Part shown: positions 5,728 through 38,803 of the stretch, in pieces
How the letters are laid out: every line of letters begins with the position of its first letter
Position numbering within the stretch: position 1 is the first letter of the stretch
Source: a virus
Direction: 5' to 3' (one strand)
DNA length: 45,631 nt
Virus record (IMG/VR): IMGVR_UViG_3300035199_000152
Coordinates: 1-45,631 of that record
Position numbers and translations under genes: made by a program
The notes under the pieces: model-generated
What the model was told of the DNA's origin: nothing
The model's input: the letters and a program-made list of their open reading frames with translations, nothing else
Database searches by the model: none

Positions 5728-8150
5728 TGCCTAAACAGATTTACACCTTAAATAATTTTTCTGGTGGTATAAATAGTTTAAAAGACCCGAGAGATTTATC
5801 CGATAATCAGTTGGTTCAAGCCCAGAATATTAATATAGAGAATCAAGGGATTATAAAATCTTCAGGTGTTTTAGCCGCTCATGGAACCGCTCAGGCTATA
5901 ACTAGCGAAGTTGTATCTGGTCATGGGTTAGGTATATTTGAATCTGACTATCAGATTGCCACAACCACAGTAACGCTTGCCAGTGACTTAGTTTTACATG
6001 CTAATGCTAGTGGTAATAATATTTATTCAAAAGATGGAGCTGGCGGCAGTGTTGATAGTCAAATAGTTGATGCTCTTGAAGTTGGGGATGTAATTAATAT
6101 AAACCAAACAACTAGCACTACTGGTGGCATAAATGGCATGTATCAAATAACAAAAAAGAGCGGTAATTATGCATTTATTCAGCCAAAATTAGCTGGTGGT
6201 TCAGCTATTTCAAATATAGTGGCTGGTACTATTACAATAAAAGATTTAGGTGAAAAGTTAATTGCTTTAGCTGATTCTAATACCGGCTCTGTAGATATAT
6301 ATTCAAAAAATAGTGATAAATGGAATAATACATCATCAAGTCCAGAAGATAGCCCTACACTTGATTTAGTCTACGAAGATGACGGCACTAATACTGATGT
6401 AACATTAAGTTCTGATTCTAAGATGGCTTACTATGTGGCTGATGGGAACATTAGAGCATCTGATGCTAACTTTAATAATCACGTAAGGGTAAGGTGGTAT
6501 GGTTTAGTAAAGAGAGAGCACTTTAAGGGATTAGCACTTTCTGATTCTTTTTTTAATTACTATCAAAATTTTAACGGATTAGATGCTCCTACTGTTGGTA
6601 TTAACGGTTCTGGTGCTCCTAGTGCTGGCGCTGGTTTTAATTTTAATCCAACAATGGCATCTGATGACAATAGCACTTGGAGAGCTGACGTATATCAAGT
6701 TGCCTTTAGCTTTATTTATGACGGGAATCAGGAATCTTTATTATATACTCCATCAAGTAATAATACGTTTACAATAACAGAAGGTCAAAAAATATCATTT
6801 ACTGTTAATGCGACTAAACCATATGACGAAAGAGTTTCTGGGGGTAGGATATATTTTAGACCCGATGACTCTACAACGGAGCCTTGGACTTTGCTTGCTG
6901 ACATCAATTTAAGCGATGGAGCAAGGGGTTCTTTAGATTCAGATTACCAAGCTTGGTCTCATACAAGTGGAACAACTAATTCTGTTTTTACAACAGCTTC
7001 TGTAGAATCATTAAATCCTGTATTGGATACATACGAAACTATTAATGGATATCCTCCTACGATTCCATCTATAACGATAGGTAAAAATGGAGAAGCTTGG
7101 AAGACCGGTATAGTCTGTAATCGTAGAGCCTTTGTTGCTAATGTAAAAATATATGAAGAAGGAGCTGATGTTCCTACTGTTTTTGGTGATAGGATAATGT
7201 ATTCTATGCCAAATAGATTTGATACATTCCCATCTTTTAATTATATTGATGTTGTTAAGGGCGATGCTGAAGATTATGTTAAACTTGAATCTTATTCTGA
7301 TAGGTTAATAGCCTTTAAACAGAAATCAGTTCAAGTTATCAATGTTTCGTCCCCATCTGATGCTAATTGGTTTTTAGAAACAGATGTAAAACATAACGGC
7401 GTTAAGAACCCCGGAGCTGTTTTTAGAACAGAATTTGGGGTATGCTGGGTGAATGAAAACGGGTGTTACATTTATGATGGTAGTAGGGTAATAAATATTA
7501 TAGATAATAAAATTAATGATAGCACTTGGGCTTCTTTTATAAATGACACTTCAATAGTTGGCTATGAAAAAAGAAAAAAACAGATAATTGTTGTTAAAAA
7601 TGAGGATGGTTCTGCTTCTGATACTGGACATGCTTATATATATGATATAAAATCTAAATCTTGGACTCAAATTGCGGGATTTGCAACTGACCAAAAAAGA
7701 CTTACTAATTTTGCCGTAGATTATAATGGTGATTTAATACTTGGTGAAGATAATGGTAGTGGCTCTGTAACTATAAATAAATTTACACCAGATACTTATA
7801 AAAGTAGTAGTGCTGGTTATTGGGTTATGCAGACAAAAGATATAGATTTTGGTCAACCCGGAGTAAAGAAAAAAATCTATGCAGTGTATATAACTTATAA
7901 AAGTGACAACGCTCAAACTCAACCAATATATTATGCTAAGGATGGTAGTTCAAGTTTTAGCCAGTTTACTGGAAACTTTACTGCTAACACAAGCTGGGCA
8001 AAGCTAAAGGCTTATGCGACTCCATTTACCTGTCAAAGTTTATCTATAAAAATAGCAAATCCTACAAATGCTTCTGGAGTTACTGCCGGTATTCAGATAA
8101 ATGATATATCAATAGAATACAGACTACTTCCATCTTCTAGGGTTGCATAA
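5727..8150 (+). CDS. Large tail protein (NFSGGIN type, tail tube/nozzle-like)
   Basis: The product has 807 residues with a GTG start that overlaps the previous TAG. It begins with a N-N-F-S-G-G-I-N-S-L-K-D-P-R-D-L motif, known from large podoviral tail proteins (tail tubular protein B-like). Repeated beta-rich modules follow, including G-V-C-W-V-N-E-N-G-C-Y-I-Y-D-G at about 570-585, consistent with a beta-propeller. I infer a structural component of the short tail. It is followed without a gap by a C1q-like protein. Confidence 0.85.
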   Translation: MPKQIYTLNNFSGGINSLKDPRDLSDNQLVQAQNINIENQGIIKSSGVLAAHGTAQAITSEVVSGHGLGIFESDYQIATTTVTLASDLVLHANASGNNIYSKDGAGGSVDSQIVDALEVGDVININQTTSTTGGINGMYQITKKSGNYAFIQPKLAGGSAISNIVAGTITIKDLGEKLIALADSNTGSVDIYSKNSDKWNNTSSSPEDSPTLDLVYEDDGTNTDVTLSSDSKMAYYVADGNIRASDANFNNHVRVRWYGLVKREHFKGLALSDSFFNYYQNFNGLDAPTVGINGSGAPSAGAGFNFNPTMASDDNSTWRADVYQVAFSFIYDGNQESLLYTPSSNNTFTITEGQKISFTVNATKPYDERVSGGRIYFRPDDSTTEPWTLLADINLSDGARGSLDSDYQAWSHTSGTTNSVFTTASVESLNPVLDTYETINGYPPTIPSITIGKNGEAWKTGIVCNRRAFVANVKIYEEGADVPTVFGDRIMYSMPNRFDTFPSFNYIDVVKGDAEDYVKLESYSDRLIAFKQKSVQVINVSSPSDANWFLETDVKHNGVKNPGAVFRTEFGVCWVNENGCYIYDGSRVINIIDNKINDSTWASFINDTSIVGYEKRKKQIIVVKNEDGSASDTGHAYIYDIKSKSWTQIAGFATDQKRLTNFAVDYNGDLILGEDNGSGSVTINKFTPDTYKSSSAGYWVMQTKDIDFGQPGVKKKIYAVYITYKSDNAQTQPIYYAKDGSSSFSQFTGNFTANTSWAKLKAYATPFTCQSLSIKIANPTNASGVTAGIQINDISIEYRLLPSSRVA

Positions 8151-8926
8151 TGGCGTTTACAAGAGAACAGCGAGTAATGATGAACAGCAAGGAGCAGGCA
8201 GTTTCTTCTGGAGATGTAAAAGGGACTCTTAGCCACTCTCCATCTTCTAGGAATATGAGTGATGGTGAGCAAGTATATGCAAGAGAGTCTAACAAACCAT
8301 TGGCTTTATATAAAAAATTCAAAGGTGTTTTATGGAAGTCTTATTTTTCAAAAGATGGTAATCAATATGTAGATAGGGATATTACTATTGCGAGAAATAT
8401 AAATTTATCAAATAAGTTAATTATAAAAAATTATCCGGCATTTAGTGTATATCAAAGTACGAGTGTAGATGGTCAAGCAGTAGCATCTGGTAGCACATAT
8501 ACTAGAATAATTCTCAATACAGAACATTATGACAATGGAAGTAACTTTGATGTATCGGGTTATAAATTTACAGCCCCTTATAATGGTATTTACCATTTTG
8601 ATGCTAATGTCCTAATGGATAGTAATGTGGATACAGATGCTGGCGATTGGGATGCTGAAGAAAGACTTGATATTCATTTGTTTAAAAATCAAGGAGATGC
8701 AACTACAACCAGTACAACAAATAGAGTTGCTAGTAGTCTACATTTACTCTCTGGTGCTATTACAGATAATTTTTGGCAGGGTAATCTTTCAGCAGATTTA
8801 AAATTAGATGCTGGTGATTTTATAGAATTATATGTAAAACATGATAGTGGTGTAGAACAACATACTCACGAACCAACTGGTGGGGATTTTACAAGATTTA
8901 CAGGGCATTTAATATGTGCTCTATAG
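8150..8926 (+). CDS. Virion protein with carboxy-terminal C1q/TNF-like domain
   Basis: The product has 258 residues. Residues 1-90 look like an attachment region. From about 98 the sequence follows a C1q-like jelly-roll pattern: A-F-S-V-Y, then I-L-N-T-E-H-Y-D-N-G, then Y-K-F-T-A-P-Y-N-G-I-Y-H-F-D-A, and L-D-A-G-D-F-I-E-L-Y-V with F-T-G-H-L-I at the end. In phages this trimeric domain serves as a receptor-binding or decoration tip. This would be a second adhesin besides the S74-matured fibre. Confidence 0.82.
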   Translation: MAFTREQRVMMNSKEQAVSSGDVKGTLSHSPSSRNMSDGEQVYARESNKPLALYKKFKGVLWKSYFSKDGNQYVDRDITIARNINLSNKLIIKNYPAFSVYQSTSVDGQAVASGSTYTRIILNTEHYDNGSNFDVSGYKFTAPYNGIYHFDANVLMDSNVDTDAGDWDAEERLDIHLFKNQGDATTTSTTNRVASSLHLLSGAITDNFWQGNLSADLKLDAGDFIELYVKHDSGVEQHTHEPTGGDFTRFTGHLICAL

Positions 8927-25226: not shown

Positions 25227-25622
25227 TTAATTAGTTTTCCAAAATCCACCTTTTATTTCTTCCGGCTCAACACCAAACCATCTCATTCTCTCTATCGTAC
25301 TTACATATATGTATGTTGATTCTTTTATTTTAGGGCGAATATCCTTTAAGTCAATCCTAGAAAACAATCCCCTACCGCCCCTATTTTTACGTTCTACTCC
25401 TTCAATGTAATCAAGGGTGTCTAATGTCGTGTAATCAACTTCATATAATTCACCTGAAATTGTATTTTTCTTATCACTTACTTCGATAAATGGGAATCCA
25501 CTTTTAGTATCATACATTTTAAATCCCGTAACTATTACATCTTCAATGAATTTTGCATCTCTTAAATATGTAGATAGTTTCCCATCTTTTTTTAATGTAC
25601 CATACACTATTACTTTTTTCAT
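25227..25622 (-). CDS. Gamma-glutamylcyclotransferase-like (AIG2/BtrG fold)
   Basis: The product has 131 residues. Starts with V-I-V-Y-G-T-L-K-K-D-G-K-L-S-T-Y-L, the substrate-loop motif of the gamma-glutamylcyclotransferase family, then S-G-E-L-Y-E-V-D, and L-D-x-I-E-G. These enzymes release gamma-glutamyl groups as 5-oxoproline from amines or peptides. Because the genome also has an amidoligase and a glutamine amidotransferase, I infer shared gamma-glutamyl/amide chemistry. It is 5 kb away in another operon, so the link is not proven. Confidence 0.8.
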   Translation of the reverse strand: MKKVIVYGTLKKDGKLSTYLRDAKFIEDVIVTGFKMYDTKSGFPFIEVSDKKNTISGELYEVDYTTLDTLDYIEGVERKNRGGRGLFSRIDLKDIRPKIKESTYIYVSTIERMRWFGVEPEEIKGGFWKTN

Positions 25623-29100: not shown

Positions 29101-29556
29101 TAAATTGTGGGGGGCTTTGTGGGAATAGCTCACAGCATTATAAAATAATATCATGAATACTATAGTAGTTATAAATACATTATATAGTATATATAGTATA
29201 ACATATAGTATATGACGAGGAACAACTACCATTGTGGACACATTCTATTAATACATGCGGATAACTTGTGGATAACTACCTACGTGCATACAATAACTAA
29301 CTATTATTACTGTACTTACGTGCATACAATATAATATATATATATGTGGATAACTTTACAACTACCATACAACTACCATACAACTACTTACGTGCATAGT
29401 TTTACTACGTACGTGCATAATCTCATTACTTACTTGCATATTACCTACGTGCATACAAAAAAGAATTTAAGGTATTGATTTCAGGCACCTTATTTTCGAT
29501 GATTACTTACGTGCATAATAAATATATATATACTAAAAAAAATTTAGTTATCGGCT
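29101..29556. other. Probable replication origin with DnaA boxes and iterons
   Basis: There is no gene here. Two perfect DnaA boxes (TGTGGATAA) lie at 29267-29275 and 29345-29353, with near matches at 29233 and 29256. Six perfect TACGTGCATA iterons begin at 29281, 29317, 29389, 29410, 29446 and 29508, and one with a single mismatch at 29431. Some are 21 bases apart, two helical turns. AT-rich stretches (29161-29213, 29327-29345 and 29518-29534) could unwind. This is the classic layout of an iteron/DnaA-type theta origin; direct proof is lacking. Confidence 0.8.
29358..29391. repeat. 11-bp tandem repeats next to iterons
   Basis: Two and a half copies of CAACTACCATA run into an iteron, extending the repeat structure of the origin. 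Confidence 0.7.
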
Positions 29557-29639: not shown

Positions 29640-29665
29640 AAAAAAAAGGGAGCCCGAAGGCTCCC
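29640..29665 (-). terminator. Rho-independent terminator of amidoligase operon
   Basis: On the minus strand GGGAGCC, TTCG loop, GGCTCCC (29648-29665), then eight T. The UUCG-type tetraloop and T-run are textbook. It isolates the amidoligase operon from the origin. Confidence 0.93.
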
Positions 29666-29677
29666 AATTTTCTCTTA

Positions 29678-30406
29678 TTATCCCGAATATGGCATTGTTT
29701 CACAAGTAGTACAATAACCCGAGTTTTGGGTATATCTTGTGAGTAATGGCGTTTGACAGCCACCACAATGGGAGTAATCCACGTTCCCTATTGAAAGCGG
29801 TGCGCTTTTTACTGCCTTTGTAGGCTGTTTTTTATAAGCCGTTACAGGCTGTGAATAGTAATAGTATTGATAACGATAACTGTCGTTAGAATACCATACG
29901 TTACCATCCCAATGACCTAGATTTTCATTTGAAATTAGGTATTGTCCCTTGTTATCCAGAAAAACCAATTTACTTGTTCCTATTGATTCTTCTATAAGGT
30001 CACAAATTCCCGTATTCCTTATGAAATCACTCGGCAGTCGTTTTAAAACAGTGTCATTAAACATGGAAGTGTCAGACCTTTTTTTATCTGTTTCCACCAT
30101 GCGAATAACTCCATTATGAATAAAGCCAATATCATCATTAATTCGGAAGGGATGGCAATTATTAGTATTGGTTTTCCCATGTGTAGTGATTCTAAAATGA
30201 ATCGCTGTTATGGGATTTCCATTATTAATAACATTCTTTACGTATGATTTCCAAAAGTCTTTAAAACTGAAAAAACCTTTGAAAAAATGTAAAAGTCCAT
30301 CTTTTGAAAACATATAGCCAGCGCCATCATCATTGTTGTGAAAACAAGTTTTGAGTTTTGCCTTCTGTATGGTTTCACCTTGTTGTTTAAGGATTGCAAT
30401 ACACAT
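29678..30406 (-). CDS. Class II glutamine amidotransferase with C-terminal zinc ribbon
   Basis: The product has 242 residues. Cys2 follows Met1, as in Ntn-type glutaminases that use an amino-terminal Cys. Downstream are I-H-F-R-I-T-T-H-G (about 69-77), C-H-P-F (84-87) and F-I-H-N-G-V-I (96-101), the GATase II core. A Tyr-rich linker leads to C214-G-G-C217 and C232-T-T-C235, a zinc ribbon. The enzyme would free ammonia from glutamine for the amidoligase encoded just before it. GGGGAG lies inside the end of the amidoligase gene, so the two are coupled. Confidence 0.88.
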   Translation of the reverse strand: MCIAILKQQGETIQKAKLKTCFHNNDDGAGYMFSKDGLLHFFKGFFSFKDFWKSYVKNVINNGNPITAIHFRITTHGKTNTNNCHPFRINDDIGFIHNGVIRMVETDKKRSDTSMFNDTVLKRLPSDFIRNTGICDLIEESIGTSKLVFLDNKGQYLISNENLGHWDGNVWYSNDSYRYQYYYYSQPVTAYKKQPTKAVKSAPLSIGNVDYSHCGGCQTPLLTRYTQNSGYCTTCETMPYSG

Positions 30407-30407
30407 A

Positions 30408-31601
30408 CTATAACTCCCCGTTATCCGTAGAGAAGGATAACTTATTAAGGTTTGTAAGATGTTTGCGAGTCCACCGGTTTACAACTACAGAAAACTTCCT
30501 GTAACTTCTCCGAGAAAGAAAGAAACAAAGATTTTCATAGTCATTATAGTTTTTAGCTACAAAACTTAAATATGACTTTAACCCTTGTTTCCCTTTCACA
30601 GTGTCCAAACTCGTGACTTTAACCCATTGAATCAGTGACTTTACAAATTCAAGATTTTTCGAAAAGCACATTGTATTCAATGTACCTCTGAAAATCCTAA
30701 ATTCGATAGTCGGACGATTATGTAGGTTAACAGCAGATGACCTTTCGGTGTAATCCATAGCCATTGAAACAGACTGACAAATGCGAGGTAAATTCTGCCA
30801 AGCATCGTCAGAAAGATATGGATTCGCCCATTCTTCCAATCTCTCTCTATTCCTTTGAGAGATGTCGAGAATAAATTGGAAATTCTCCGGATTATTCACA
30901 AAAGACATAATCTTTAGAATGTCGTAAGGCTTCAAAGCATCTTTAGAAACGTGGATATGCATTCCAGAGTTTGGCGCATTATATCCATGTAGCTTATTTT
31001 CCCGTAACTTACTGAATAAAGTTTTGAACATTTCACGTCCAAACTTATCCCAATAATTCCAAGAGAAAGGATGAGATACAACTTCGACTAAACAAGTACA
31101 ATCCGACTTACAATAAAGTAAGTTTTCACGTCCTGTAATCCCTTTACCTATTAAATTCACAAAACTAGCAAATTTATTAGACTCTGCATGAATCTCTGGA
31201 GAGTCCTGTTGACTTCTCTCCAAATCCATTTCAATCTCTATTCCATAATGTAATACAGGATTTCCCTTGCTATAGGACTCATGGGTTAAGTACGGCTTAT
31301 CATGTCTTCCAACCCTATGGAATAAGGGCTCTGGCTTGTGGCTATAACTTTGCACACTAGCGGAGTCTTCCAAGCAGTTGGTACAGATACCATTCTTAAT
31401 GTTAAGGCTCCGATTATCACAGTACAAACATACTTCTAGTGTATCGTAACAGCCCTCACAAACACCAACACCATTATATCTCGTATATGGATGAGCATGC
31501 TCATCACAAACGTAACATTTAGGCAAGGCTTTTGGCACATCAACAAATTCAGAGAGATTATTCTCCCTAAATTTCTTTAAATAACTTATGATTTGTCTCA
31601 T
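30408..31601 (-). CDS. Amidoligase (COOH-NH2 ligase, glutamine synthetase-like) with N-terminal zinc ribbons
   Basis: The product has 397 residues. Residues 29-76 hold four C-x2-C pairs, two zinc ribbons. The catalytic part starts with H-Y-G-I-E-I-E-M-D (120-126, E122 and E124), then C-T-C-L-V-E-V-V-S-H (E173), S-G-M-H-I-H-V-S (H215, H217) and T-I-E-F-R-I-F-R-G-T (E300, R302, R305). This is the Amidoligase_2 pattern, which forms amide bonds using ATP. Paired with a GATase II it probably amidates carboxylates or ligates peptides; the substrate could be cell-wall peptide or a host protein. AAGGAAATAATAACA precedes the ATG, and a roughly 200-base structured leader lies upstream. Confidence 0.85.
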   Translation of the reverse strand: MRQIISYLKKFRENNLSEFVDVPKALPKCYVCDEHAHPYTRYNGVGVCEGCYDTLEVCLYCDNRSLNIKNGICTNCLEDSASVQSYSHKPEPLFHRVGRHDKPYLTHESYSKGNPVLHYGIEIEMDLERSQQDSPEIHAESNKFASFVNLIGKGITGRENLLYCKSDCTCLVEVVSHPFSWNYWDKFGREMFKTLFSKLRENKLHGYNAPNSGMHIHVSKDALKPYDILKIMSFVNNPENFQFILDISQRNRERLEEWANPYLSDDAWQNLPRICQSVSMAMDYTERSSAVNLHNRPTIEFRIFRGTLNTMCFSKNLEFVKSLIQWVKVTSLDTVKGKQGLKSYLSFVAKNYNDYENLCFFLSRRSYRKFSVVVNRWTRKHLTNLNKLSFSTDNGEL

Positions 31602-35292: not shown

Positions 35293-35673
35293 ATGTATAA
35301 GTTTGGAAAAAGGTCAAGAGAGCGTCTAAAAGGCGTTAATGCCAAACTGGTGAATGTTCTCAATGAACTCATTAAAATAATGGATGTTACTATTATTGAA
35401 GGGGTTAGGAGTGAAGAACGACAGGCTGAACTCCTTGAAAAAGGGGCAACGAAGGTTAAATATTCAAGGCATATGGAAGGTAAGGCGGTAGACCTAGCGC
35501 CATATCCTATAGATTGGGAAGATAGAGAGCGGTTTCATTACATGGGTGGTATGATTCGTGGTATTGGTAAACAGCTTAATGTGAATATTCGCTGGGGAGG
35601 AGATTGGGATTCCGATGGCGAGATTAAAGATAATAATTTTGATGATTTAGTACACGTGGAGATAAGAGACTAA
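35293..35673 (+). CDS. M15-family peptidase (endolysin-type L-Ala-D-Glu/VanY-like)
   Basis: The product has 126 residues. The zinc-binding set is visible: S-R-H60-M-E-G-K-A-V-D67-L-A-P and D-L-V-H121-V-E-I, with E-G-V-R-S-x-E-R-Q near 36-43. The length matches compact phage M15 endolysins that cut peptidoglycan cross-bridge peptides. Placed between terminase and portal, away from the holin-like genes at 4-5 kb. It has no ribosome binding site of note. Confidence 0.9.
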   Translation: MYKFGKRSRERLKGVNAKLVNVLNELIKIMDVTIIEGVRSEERQAELLEKGATKVKYSRHMEGKAVDLAPYPIDWEDRERFHYMGGMIRGIGKQLNVNIRWGGDWDSDGEIKDNNFDDLVHVEIRD

Positions 35674-36757: not shown

Positions 36758-38803
36758 ATGTCTAAAATGGACAAAGATATTAGAGCCGAGCAGAACCAAG
36801 AGCTCTTTAGGAACTGGAGTGATGCTCGTCAGGATTGGGATACTGAGGCTAGGAAAGATATTGATTTTTATCTTGGTAACCATTTTACTGCTGATGAATC
36901 AGATGAGTTACAGTCTAGAAACCAAGCTGATGTTCCTATGGACAGGGTTTCTTCGGCAGTTGAAAAATTTAAAGCGGTACTTACATCAAGACCTCCAGCA
37001 TTTACAATTACACCAAGAGAAGACTCTGATGTAAAGGTAGCGAGTGTCTGGAGAACCATTGTTAGCTATATCTGGCAAATTTCAGATGGCGATTCCCAGA
37101 TGAAACAGGCTATTCACGATTATGCAACGACAGGTCTTGGCTATTTGTATGCTTATGTTGATAGAGAATCAGATTTCGGGAAAGGTGATGTCAAGTTCAC
37201 CTATCTTGACCCCTTTAGGGTTTACGTATCTCCTTCTTCACGTAATCGTTGGTATGATGATTCTGATGGCATTATTATATCTACAGTCCTTACTGGTGAG
37301 CAGGTCATTAACCTTTACCCGGAATTAGATGATATAGTAGACCCCGAAACTGGCGAACAGTCTGATGGCTTACTTCGCAGTATCTCTGAGTATTCAGAAT
37401 ACAACGGCGAAGATTATCCTTCTGCACAAAATAAAAACTCAATGACTGTGTTTACCCCTGCTGAAGTTAAAGATAAGGATTTTATGCAGGTTAAAAAGTA
37501 CCAGATACTTGAAAGATTCTATAAAGTAAAAGTTGCTTTTTATCATGTTGTAAATATACAAGACGGGGAAGAATTAATATTATCAGAAGAAGAGTTTGCA
37601 CAATTTTCTGAAGAGAATAAAGAAGTATTAGAATCTGGGTTTTTTGAAATTGCTCAGGTTTTCCAAACTAGAGTAAAAGTATGTGCATCAATAGGTGAGA
37701 TAGTTTTATATGAAGATATACTCAATTCAAACATATATCCAGTAGTTCCACTTCCAAATGTATGGACAGGGACACCTTATCCTAAGTCTGATGTATCAAG
37801 AGCAAGACCTATGCAGAGACTCCTTAATAAATTATGGTCTCTTGCTTTGTCTCATGCTCAGGCATCCGCTGGTTTAAAATTATTAGTTCCACTTGGGAGT
37901 GTTGATGACATAGCTCAGTTGGAACAAGATTGGGCTAACCCAAATGCTGTTATTGAAATAGATTCATCTCAAGGCGAGCCACATTATCCACAACCTTCAC
38001 CACTTGCTGGTGAATTTTACAAACTCATACAACAATGTGAATTTTACATTGATTTTATATTCGGCTTGCCTGAGATGATGCATGGATTTGCTGATAAAGC
38101 GCCTGATACAGTTAGGGGAACTGAGCAAATGATAGCTTTAGGCAGTCAAAGACCCAAATCGAAGCTTAGGGATATAGAATTTTCTATAAACAGGCTTGGA
38201 AAAGTAATATATAATTTATCTAAAGGTCACTATAGTTATAAGAAGATGTTTAGATTAGCACAGCCAAATAATGACCAAACTGATGTTATGGTGAATTTTT
38301 ATACAGACGTATCTGGTTCTGTAGTTGATATTAAGAAAGAGAAGTATAACATTGAACAACATGATATAAGAATTGAACCGGGTTCTTCTATGCCAACTAA
38401 TAAATGGGCAGAACTTAATGTCTATTTAGAGGCATTTCAGTTAGGTATTGTAGACAGGTATGAGGTTTTGAAAAAGAACCCAGAAATTTTTGACAAAGAG
38501 GGCATTATGCGACGCACAGATGAGAAAGAACAAATGATGTCACAGATACAAGCCCTTGAAGGTCAGTTACAGAATTTGCAGGGAGACTTGCAAACAGCCC
38601 AAAGAGAATCCGTACAGGATAGGAAACGAGTGGAAGTTGAGAAATTCAAATCACGACTTTCCGGAGTTAATTCCGATTCTAAAGCGGATAGAAGAGTACA
38701 ACGTAATAAACTTGAAACTGAGGTGAAGCTCGAAGTAGAGAAATTGGCGAACCGTATCAACCGTGAGGCTGATAAGGCAACTGGTTCTACTCTAAAAGCT
38801 TAG
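36758..38803 (+). CDS. Portal protein
   Basis: The product has 681 residues, of the long podoviral type. It shows D-I-D-F-Y-L-G-N-H-F near the start, R-P-P-A-F-T-I-T-P-R, Y-A-T-T-G-L-G-Y-L-Y-A, Y-L-D-P-F-R-V-Y-V-S-P, and a long coiled carboxy end (Q-A-L-E-G-Q-L-Q-N-L-Q). Position between terminase and scaffold fits. It forms the DNA channel at one capsid vertex. Confidence 0.9.
   Translation: MSKMDKDIRAEQNQELFRNWSDARQDWDTEARKDIDFYLGNHFTADESDELQSRNQADVPMDRVSSAVEKFKAVLTSRPPAFTITPREDSDVKVASVWRTIVSYIWQISDGDSQMKQAIHDYATTGLGYLYAYVDRESDFGKGDVKFTYLDPFRVYVSPSSRNRWYDDSDGIIISTVLTGEQVINLYPELDDIVDPETGEQSDGLLRSISEYSEYNGEDYPSAQNKNSMTVFTPAEVKDKDFMQVKKYQILERFYKVKVAFYHVVNIQDGEELILSEEEFAQFSEENKEVLESGFFEIAQVFQTRVKVCASIGEIVLYEDILNSNIYPVVPLPNVWTGTPYPKSDVSRARPMQRLLNKLWSLALSHAQASAGLKLLVPLGSVDDIAQLEQDWANPNAVIEIDSSQGEPHYPQPSPLAGEFYKLIQQCEFYIDFIFGLPEMMHGFADKAPDTVRGTEQMIALGSQRPKSKLRDIEFSINRLGKVIYNLSKGHYSYKKMFRLAQPNNDQTDVMVNFYTDVSGSVVDIKKEKYNIEQHDIRIEPGSSMPTNKWAELNVYLEAFQLGIVDRYEVLKKNPEIFDKEGIMRRTDEKEQMMSQIQALEGQLQNLQGDLQTAQRESVQDRKRVEVEKFKSRLSGVNSDSKADRRVQRNKLETEVKLEVEKLANRINREADKATGSTLKA

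Follow-up and report, generated by a model that had tools for sequence, protein, structure and literature searches.

The window analysed here, the whole 45,631-base stretch of an IMG/VR virus record, carries two adjacent genes that probably encode the two subunits of a glutamine-dependent amidoligase. We favour this reading because of the homology and predicted folds of the proteins, their intact active-site residues, their near-obligate pairing and their co-divergence. The pair is real, was correctly read from the DNA, is widespread and has already been described in kind.

The gene pair and its borders

The amidotransferase gene lies 1 nt downstream of the ligase gene on the same strand (Table 1), and the coordinates, frames and motifs that a first-pass annotation had given for both genes are exact. 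That annotation had also assigned the pair its own leader and terminator, and here only the second half stood. The terminator, a 7-bp UUCG hairpin followed by U8 at 29665-29648, is strong (z = -3.0), and in the relatives L017, L022 and L025 hairpins are kept at this site with different stem sequences. Candidate sites for a separate promoter occur at chance level (37 found against 39 expected from shuffles), so the leader is unproven.

Table 1. Coordinates of the pair, its terminator and the cyclotransferase-like gene in the window
Feature	Position	Strand	Length or detail
Amidoligase_2 (PF12224), GS-fold carboxylate-amine ligase	30408..31601	-	397 aa
Ligase domains			double zinc ribbon C29-C76 (N-terminal); catalytic core about 115-325
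Class II (N-terminal Cys2) glutamine amidotransferase	29678..30406	-	242 aa
Amidotransferase domains			glutaminase 2-180; 4-Cys zinc ribbon C214, C217, C232, C235 (C-terminal)
Intrinsic terminator, GGGAGCC-UUCG-GGCUCCC + U8	29648..29665	-	closes the two-gene unit
Gamma-glutamyl cyclotransferase (GGCT) / AIG2-like (PF06094)	25227..25622	-	131 aa

Just past the terminator, a stretch of 29% GC (29260-29526) contains six exact TACGTGCATA iterons, against an expectation of 0.02, together with two DnaA boxes (TTATCCACA), both perfect, at positions 29267 and 29345. The TACGTGCATA iteron is found at the same place in 4-6 copies in L004, L005, L016, L017, L020/L022 and L025, and the stretch may be a replication origin. 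Replication by the host through DnaA would fit, as the scanned ORFs include no recognisable DNA polymerase, helicase or primase.

The amidoligase

The ligase matches Pfam Amidoligase_2 (PF12224) at 35.5 bits (E 1.3e-8), above the curated cut-off of 22, and contains the motifs G120-I-E122-I-E124, H215-I-H217-V and E300-F-R302-I-F304-R. Residues G120, E122, E124, K165, D167, E173, P178, G213, H215, H217, R250, N292, E300, R302 and F304 are identical in all 60 homologues compared, and the acidic, histidine and arginine members of this set would form a conserved active site with a predicted role in binding metal and ATP. The zinc ribbons that had been reported for both proteins are real, though not universal. 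In the ligase ribbon (C29/32/48/51/58/61/73/76), C29 and C51 are present in 60/60 homologues and the other six cysteines in 42-54 of 60; in the amidotransferase, each of C214/217/232/235 is present in 43-46 of 60.

A search of PDB sequences with the ligase profile returned mainly LIM and zinc-finger matches in the ribbon region, and a search by fold was therefore needed. The AlphaFold2 model of the ligase, built with 60 aligned homologues (pLDDT 89.8, pTM 0.87), has seven Foldseek matches in the PDB at E <= 0.001, all of them members of the GS superfamily (YbdK, glutamine synthetases and their homologues, and PafA). In a second look with VIA the best 50 matches again all belong to the GS superfamily, with Z between 9.5 and 11.7; plant glutamate-cysteine ligase is at 11.7, YbdK at 11.0, GS at about 10, and PafA and Dop both at 10.0. 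Among viral proteins the named fold matches are mostly amidoligases, and the fold family extends to Catovirus, a giant virus of eukaryotes. The assignment as a GS-like amidoligase, which the first-pass annotation had tied to a match with the amidoligase fold and to retention of E122/E124 and H215/H217 in homologues, is borne out by both.

The amidotransferase

By sequence and structural model, the second gene is a class II (Ntn) glutamine amidotransferase, with glutaminase activity predicted. The Cys2 and H-N-G residues on which the original assignment had been based are well upheld: Cys2 comes directly after Met1 in each of the 59 homologues whose start is aligned, and residues H70, R72, T75, H85, P86, H97-N98-G99 and D112 are identical in 60/60. 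As a single sequence the protein stays below the Pfam cut-offs for GATase_6 and GATase_4 (16.9 and 15.2 bits against 27 and 23), and its matches to NCBIfam GlmS models (5e-6 to 8e-6) fall well short of the full-length cut-offs. The family profile reaches the GlmS glutaminase among PDB sequences at 2e-9, so we ascribe the Pfam shortfall to divergence from the models, with the fold still there. Among the families proposed earlier for an HMM check, Amidoligase_2 and PF06094 are thus matched above cut-off and GATase II through the family profile. The predicted structure (pLDDT 86.5, the ribbon region being less certain) resembles GlmS at Z 15.0 (173 residues, rmsd 3.7 A), EgtC at Z 14.7 and PurF at Z 13.1.

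An EgtC-like role is the main rival to the amidoligase reading, because EgtC nearly ties with GlmS as top structural match and the partner protein matches glutamate-cysteine ligase best (tied within 1 with YbdK). The Ntn subunit could then be an EgtC-type gamma-glutamyl hydrolase instead of an ammonia donor. In that case the GS-fold ligase would couple glutamate, or a different amino acid, to an amine by way of the gamma-carboxyl, and the bond would be undone by the Ntn subunit and, as a second remover, by the GGCT. Such a cycle resembles the chemistry of ergothioneine (EgtA/EgtC, in which EgtA is a glutamate-cysteine ligase kind of enzyme) and butirosin (ligase/BtrG). We nevertheless regard it as unlikely, given that the Ntn subunit retains the glutaminase pocket (R72, T75, H85, N98, G99 and D112), that its sequence profile is nearest to GlmS and PurF, and that tight pairing with a ligase usually signals ammonia supply.

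Pairing and distribution

Profile scans of viral contigs yielded 150 non-duplicate amidoligase genes. An amidotransferase is found in the same locus for 143/143 amidoligase genes not truncated by a contig end, and the 7 genes of the 150 that lack one all lie at a contig end. In 141 loci the amidotransferase is downstream on the same strand, with a median gap of -1 nt and 129 of the 141 within 60 nt of the amidoligase; in the other 2 it is immediately upstream. Roughly half of the loci had been retrieved by the amidotransferase profile and half by that of the amidoligase, which makes this count partly one by construction; the amidoligase-derived half, taken alone, shows the same pairing. Most bacterial loci, chiefly from Clostridia, are paired as well. 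Distances between ligases and between amidotransferases co-vary (Mantel r 0.85 over 121 pairs, with 0/999 permutations as high), a value to which the shared ancestry of these phages adds. Pairing is nearly obligate, and the proposal that the two genes are coupled and act together is supported by fold, invariant residues, adjacency and co-divergence.

As a control we used 32 viral contigs of at least 30 kb picked by an arbitrary 14-16-base pattern. PF12224 occurs in 2 of these 32 and is absent from 14/14 well-known genomes, which marks it as an accessory and not a housekeeping function. For Phage-ZRK32 a role of such genes as nitrogen-metabolism auxiliaries, feeding ammonia or glutamine-derived nitrogen into host amino acids, has been put forward (PMC10945688); this phage encodes an amidoligase, a GATase, a GGCT and a glutathione synthase, and its host grows better with it on nitrate or ammonium. 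We find this reading very improbable for the pair, since the Phage-ZRK32 link comes from growth with the whole phage and not from tests of single genes, and since PF12224, unlike core nitrogen enzymes, is missing from the 14 control genomes. The homologous cassette of phage HP1, moreover, is expressed "immediately" on infection (PMC7082346), a timing that suits host takeover better.

We also clustered the genes within 4 kb of the pair at all pair loci. The large clusters are confined to a single phage lineage, with the exception of an ATP-grasp gene that follows the amidotransferase in many OM43/Zobellviridae-like phages and in LUZ24, and no companion common to all pair lineages appears among the clustered neighbours within 4 kb. 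At L104, L106, L109 and about 25 other loci the ATP-grasp gene lies directly 3' of the amidotransferase, often overlapping it, and in OM43/Zobellviridae-like metagenomic phages this version forms a three-gene module.

The fold matches of the ligase include PafA and Dop, and Iyer in 2009 reportedly listed peptide tagging as one role of such ligases. On this account a PafA-like ligase would attach a peptide or a single amino acid to a protein of the host, with the Ntn subunit as editor. We judge tagging improbable: across lineages the pair has no small, conserved peptide gene as a constant neighbour, and a cysteine-Ntn amidotransferase is not known as a partner in the Pup system. A dedicated peptide-tag partner gene was rejected, as the neighbourhoods within 4 kb hold no universal small substrate gene. 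Membership in a defence system was likewise rejected, with PADLOC giving no match for the ligase, the amidotransferase or the GGCT, and no DNA hypermodification gene was recognised among the ORFs scanned.

The GGCT gene as a possible third member

The GGCT-like gene to which the annotation had drawn attention as a possible partner is real. It matches PF06094 at 53.3 bits (cut-off 22.8, E 5e-14), retains both the YGTL loop (as YGTLK) and the catalytic Glu within LDYIEG, and lies on the same strand as the pair about 4 kb downstream, past the terminator. Its only matches in 50,697 phage records are in RIO-1, HP1 and phiM6, all of them published cassette phages. In the window's own clade the gene is present in 5/5 long pair-bearing records, and in the pair-lacking sister clade in 0/10 records of at least 30 kb, co-segregation that may, because of the clade structure, reflect a single evolutionary event. 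PF06094 was found in 0/36 other pair-bearing records of at least 30 kb outside the clade and in none of the 32 chance-sampled viral contigs, and a general partnership was rejected on these counts. We consider it plausible that the GGCT is an optional partner of the pair at the level of the lineage.

The co-segregation in the window's lineage, and the placing of a GGCT gene beside the amidotransferase in phages L112, L114 and L137, speak for the cycle of gamma-glutamyl addition and removal considered above, and the 0/36 count outside the clade speaks against it. We think it distinctly unlikely that the phage uses ligase, EgtC-like hydrolase and GGCT together to put gamma-glutamyl groups reversibly on an amine or peptide of the host.

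Presence and absence of the pair in the window's lineage

Relatives of the window's phage were also sampled independently of the ligase, by their terminase (TerL). Phages whose TerS is at least about 60% identical form a clade that carries the pair. A sister clade (TerL about 80-82%, TerS 45-52%) lacks both the pair and the GGCT in ten records of at least 30 kb, and the pair is missing from L378 (TerL identity 91%) as well. The window's lineage can therefore do without the pair, and the idea that it is a core gene set of the lineage was rejected on this sampling. In pair-lacking relatives the pair's site holds DUF932- or GP88-like genes, divergent from terS, and therefore resembles a cargo slot; such DUF932-like or GP88-like genes lie at 1775-2353 of L378 and upstream of terS in L406, L428 and L448. 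Among the syntenic relatives L007-L041 the amidoligase is 33-57% identical, against 80-89% for the portal and 84-92% for TerL, and thus diverges much faster; its most variable parts are residues 231-284 and the zinc ribbon, and the GGCT is similarly fast.

It had been suggested that the pair might keep the M15 peptidase of this phage from attacking the host wall. An M15-like gene does share the window with the pair, at 35293-35673, scoring 23.1 bits, just under the Pfam cut-off of 25. It is, however, present in all pair-lacking sister phages examined, and the L378 copy is 93% identical. The suggestion is disfavoured, because the M15 gene persists where the pair is gone, and we give it hardly any credence.

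The window's phage lineage is little represented among isolates, as judged from its sequences: the portal protein (36758-38803, PHROG 156) has no tblastn match at 1e-5 in the 50,697 phage records, and for TerL even the best matches reach only 22-27% identity. Elsewhere in the window we noted a tail spike ending in an S74 endosialidase-chaperone domain (3-2696) and a C1q-like protein (8150-8926; E 1.6e-4, just under the cut-off), and a search for tRNA genes in the window found none.

Proposed reaction and substrate

In the two-subunit amidoligase that we favour, the class II amidotransferase subunit would hydrolyse glutamine by means of Cys2, and the ammonia would pass to the GS-fold subunit. 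This second subunit is expected to bind ATP and Mg in a pocket around E122, E124, E173, H215, H217, E300 and R302, where a carboxylate would be activated as an acyl phosphate and converted to a carboxamide; complex formation and the amide product are both inferred. In phages that carry it, the GGCT may trim gamma-glutamyl products.

The substrate is probably, if weakly so, a host molecule, since no phage neighbour is common to all pair lineages. Our leading guess is a cytoplasmic peptidoglycan precursor, which would be edited at a free carboxyl in the cytoplasm early in infection; this is a tentative choice, one that we would expect to fail more often than to hold, and it is tempered by the reach of the fold family to Catovirus. 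If the substrate is peptidoglycan, phages would have in the pair a means of amidating the wall and perhaps of excluding superinfection; if it is not, the pair would represent new phage modification chemistry.

This module is widespread in phages, and guesses about its reaction go back years; in the literature searched we found neither tests of that reaction nor experiments or biochemistry on any cassette enzyme. The window contains a minimal version, with two genes, intact active sites, a fixed place and close relatives without the pair, and is for these reasons tractable for a substrate hunt.

Comparison with known systems

The amidoligase-GATase pair is already known from a published cassette of LUZ24-, RIO-1- and phiEco32-like phages. 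The LUZ24 set comprises a COOH-NH2 ligase, the amidoligase gp18, the GATase gp19, the ATP-grasp protein gp21 and the GGCT gp22, and RIO-1 has the same gene set. The cassette is described as one for "peptidoglycan modification" and is thought to block superinfection (PMC5498523, PMC11945000, PMC6256558, PMC10580990, PMC11318856); these papers cite computational studies by Iyer and colleagues. The peptidoglycan and superinfection reading, also put forward in the first-pass annotation, is an earlier published hypothesis of others and is not new here.

The cassettes of RIO-1/HP1 (Zobellviridae), LUZ24, tf, phiEco32, phiM6 and U17 have Amidoligase_2, class II GATase and AIG2/GGCT genes in common with the window, in those phages in the early region, and the order of amidoligase and GATase in the window is as in LUZ24 (gp18, gp19, then the GGCT gp22). 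Unlike the cassette phages, the window has its amidoligase and GATase in a separate terminated unit, with the GGCT 4 kb off, and zinc ribbons are present on both of its proteins, whereas LUZ24 gp18 is without the N-terminal ribbon in the alignment. Neither LUZ24-derived HMMs nor Pfam and PHROG scans of the tested ORFs gave a match for an ATP-grasp protein or a COOH-NH2 ligase in the window, and many pair-bearing phages likewise are without both. With these two genes undetected relative to the full cassette, the window is filed here, on its gene content as predicted, as a reduced variant.

The closest named amidotransferase (38-47% identity) is that of MEP401/MEP402 of OM43 phages, where amidoligase and GATase are adjacent as in the window and the superinfection hypothesis is cited (PMC10580990). 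The MEP401/MEP402 amidoligase, however, is longer (about 545 aa) and 23-24% identical to that of the window, the genes lie at another genome position, before primase, helicase and polymerase, and in many metagenomic relatives the GATase is immediately followed by an ATP-grasp gene. In the Mycobacterium phages Marvin/Tesla a PF12224-type ligase is followed by a class II GATase, as in the window, although these phages are unrelated and their ligase, which bears the annotation "glutamine amidotransferase domain protein", is about 25% identical.

Among wall enzymes, MurT is a relative of the Mur ligases and GatD belongs to a different glutaminase class, and LtsA/AsnB has a class II glutaminase in common with the window's pair and a different synthetase domain. 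Both MurT-GatD and LtsA/AsnB are reported to bring about glutamine-dependent wall amidation by a ligase together with a glutaminase (PMC3267633, PMC5871853), and it is in function only that we liken them to the pair in the window.
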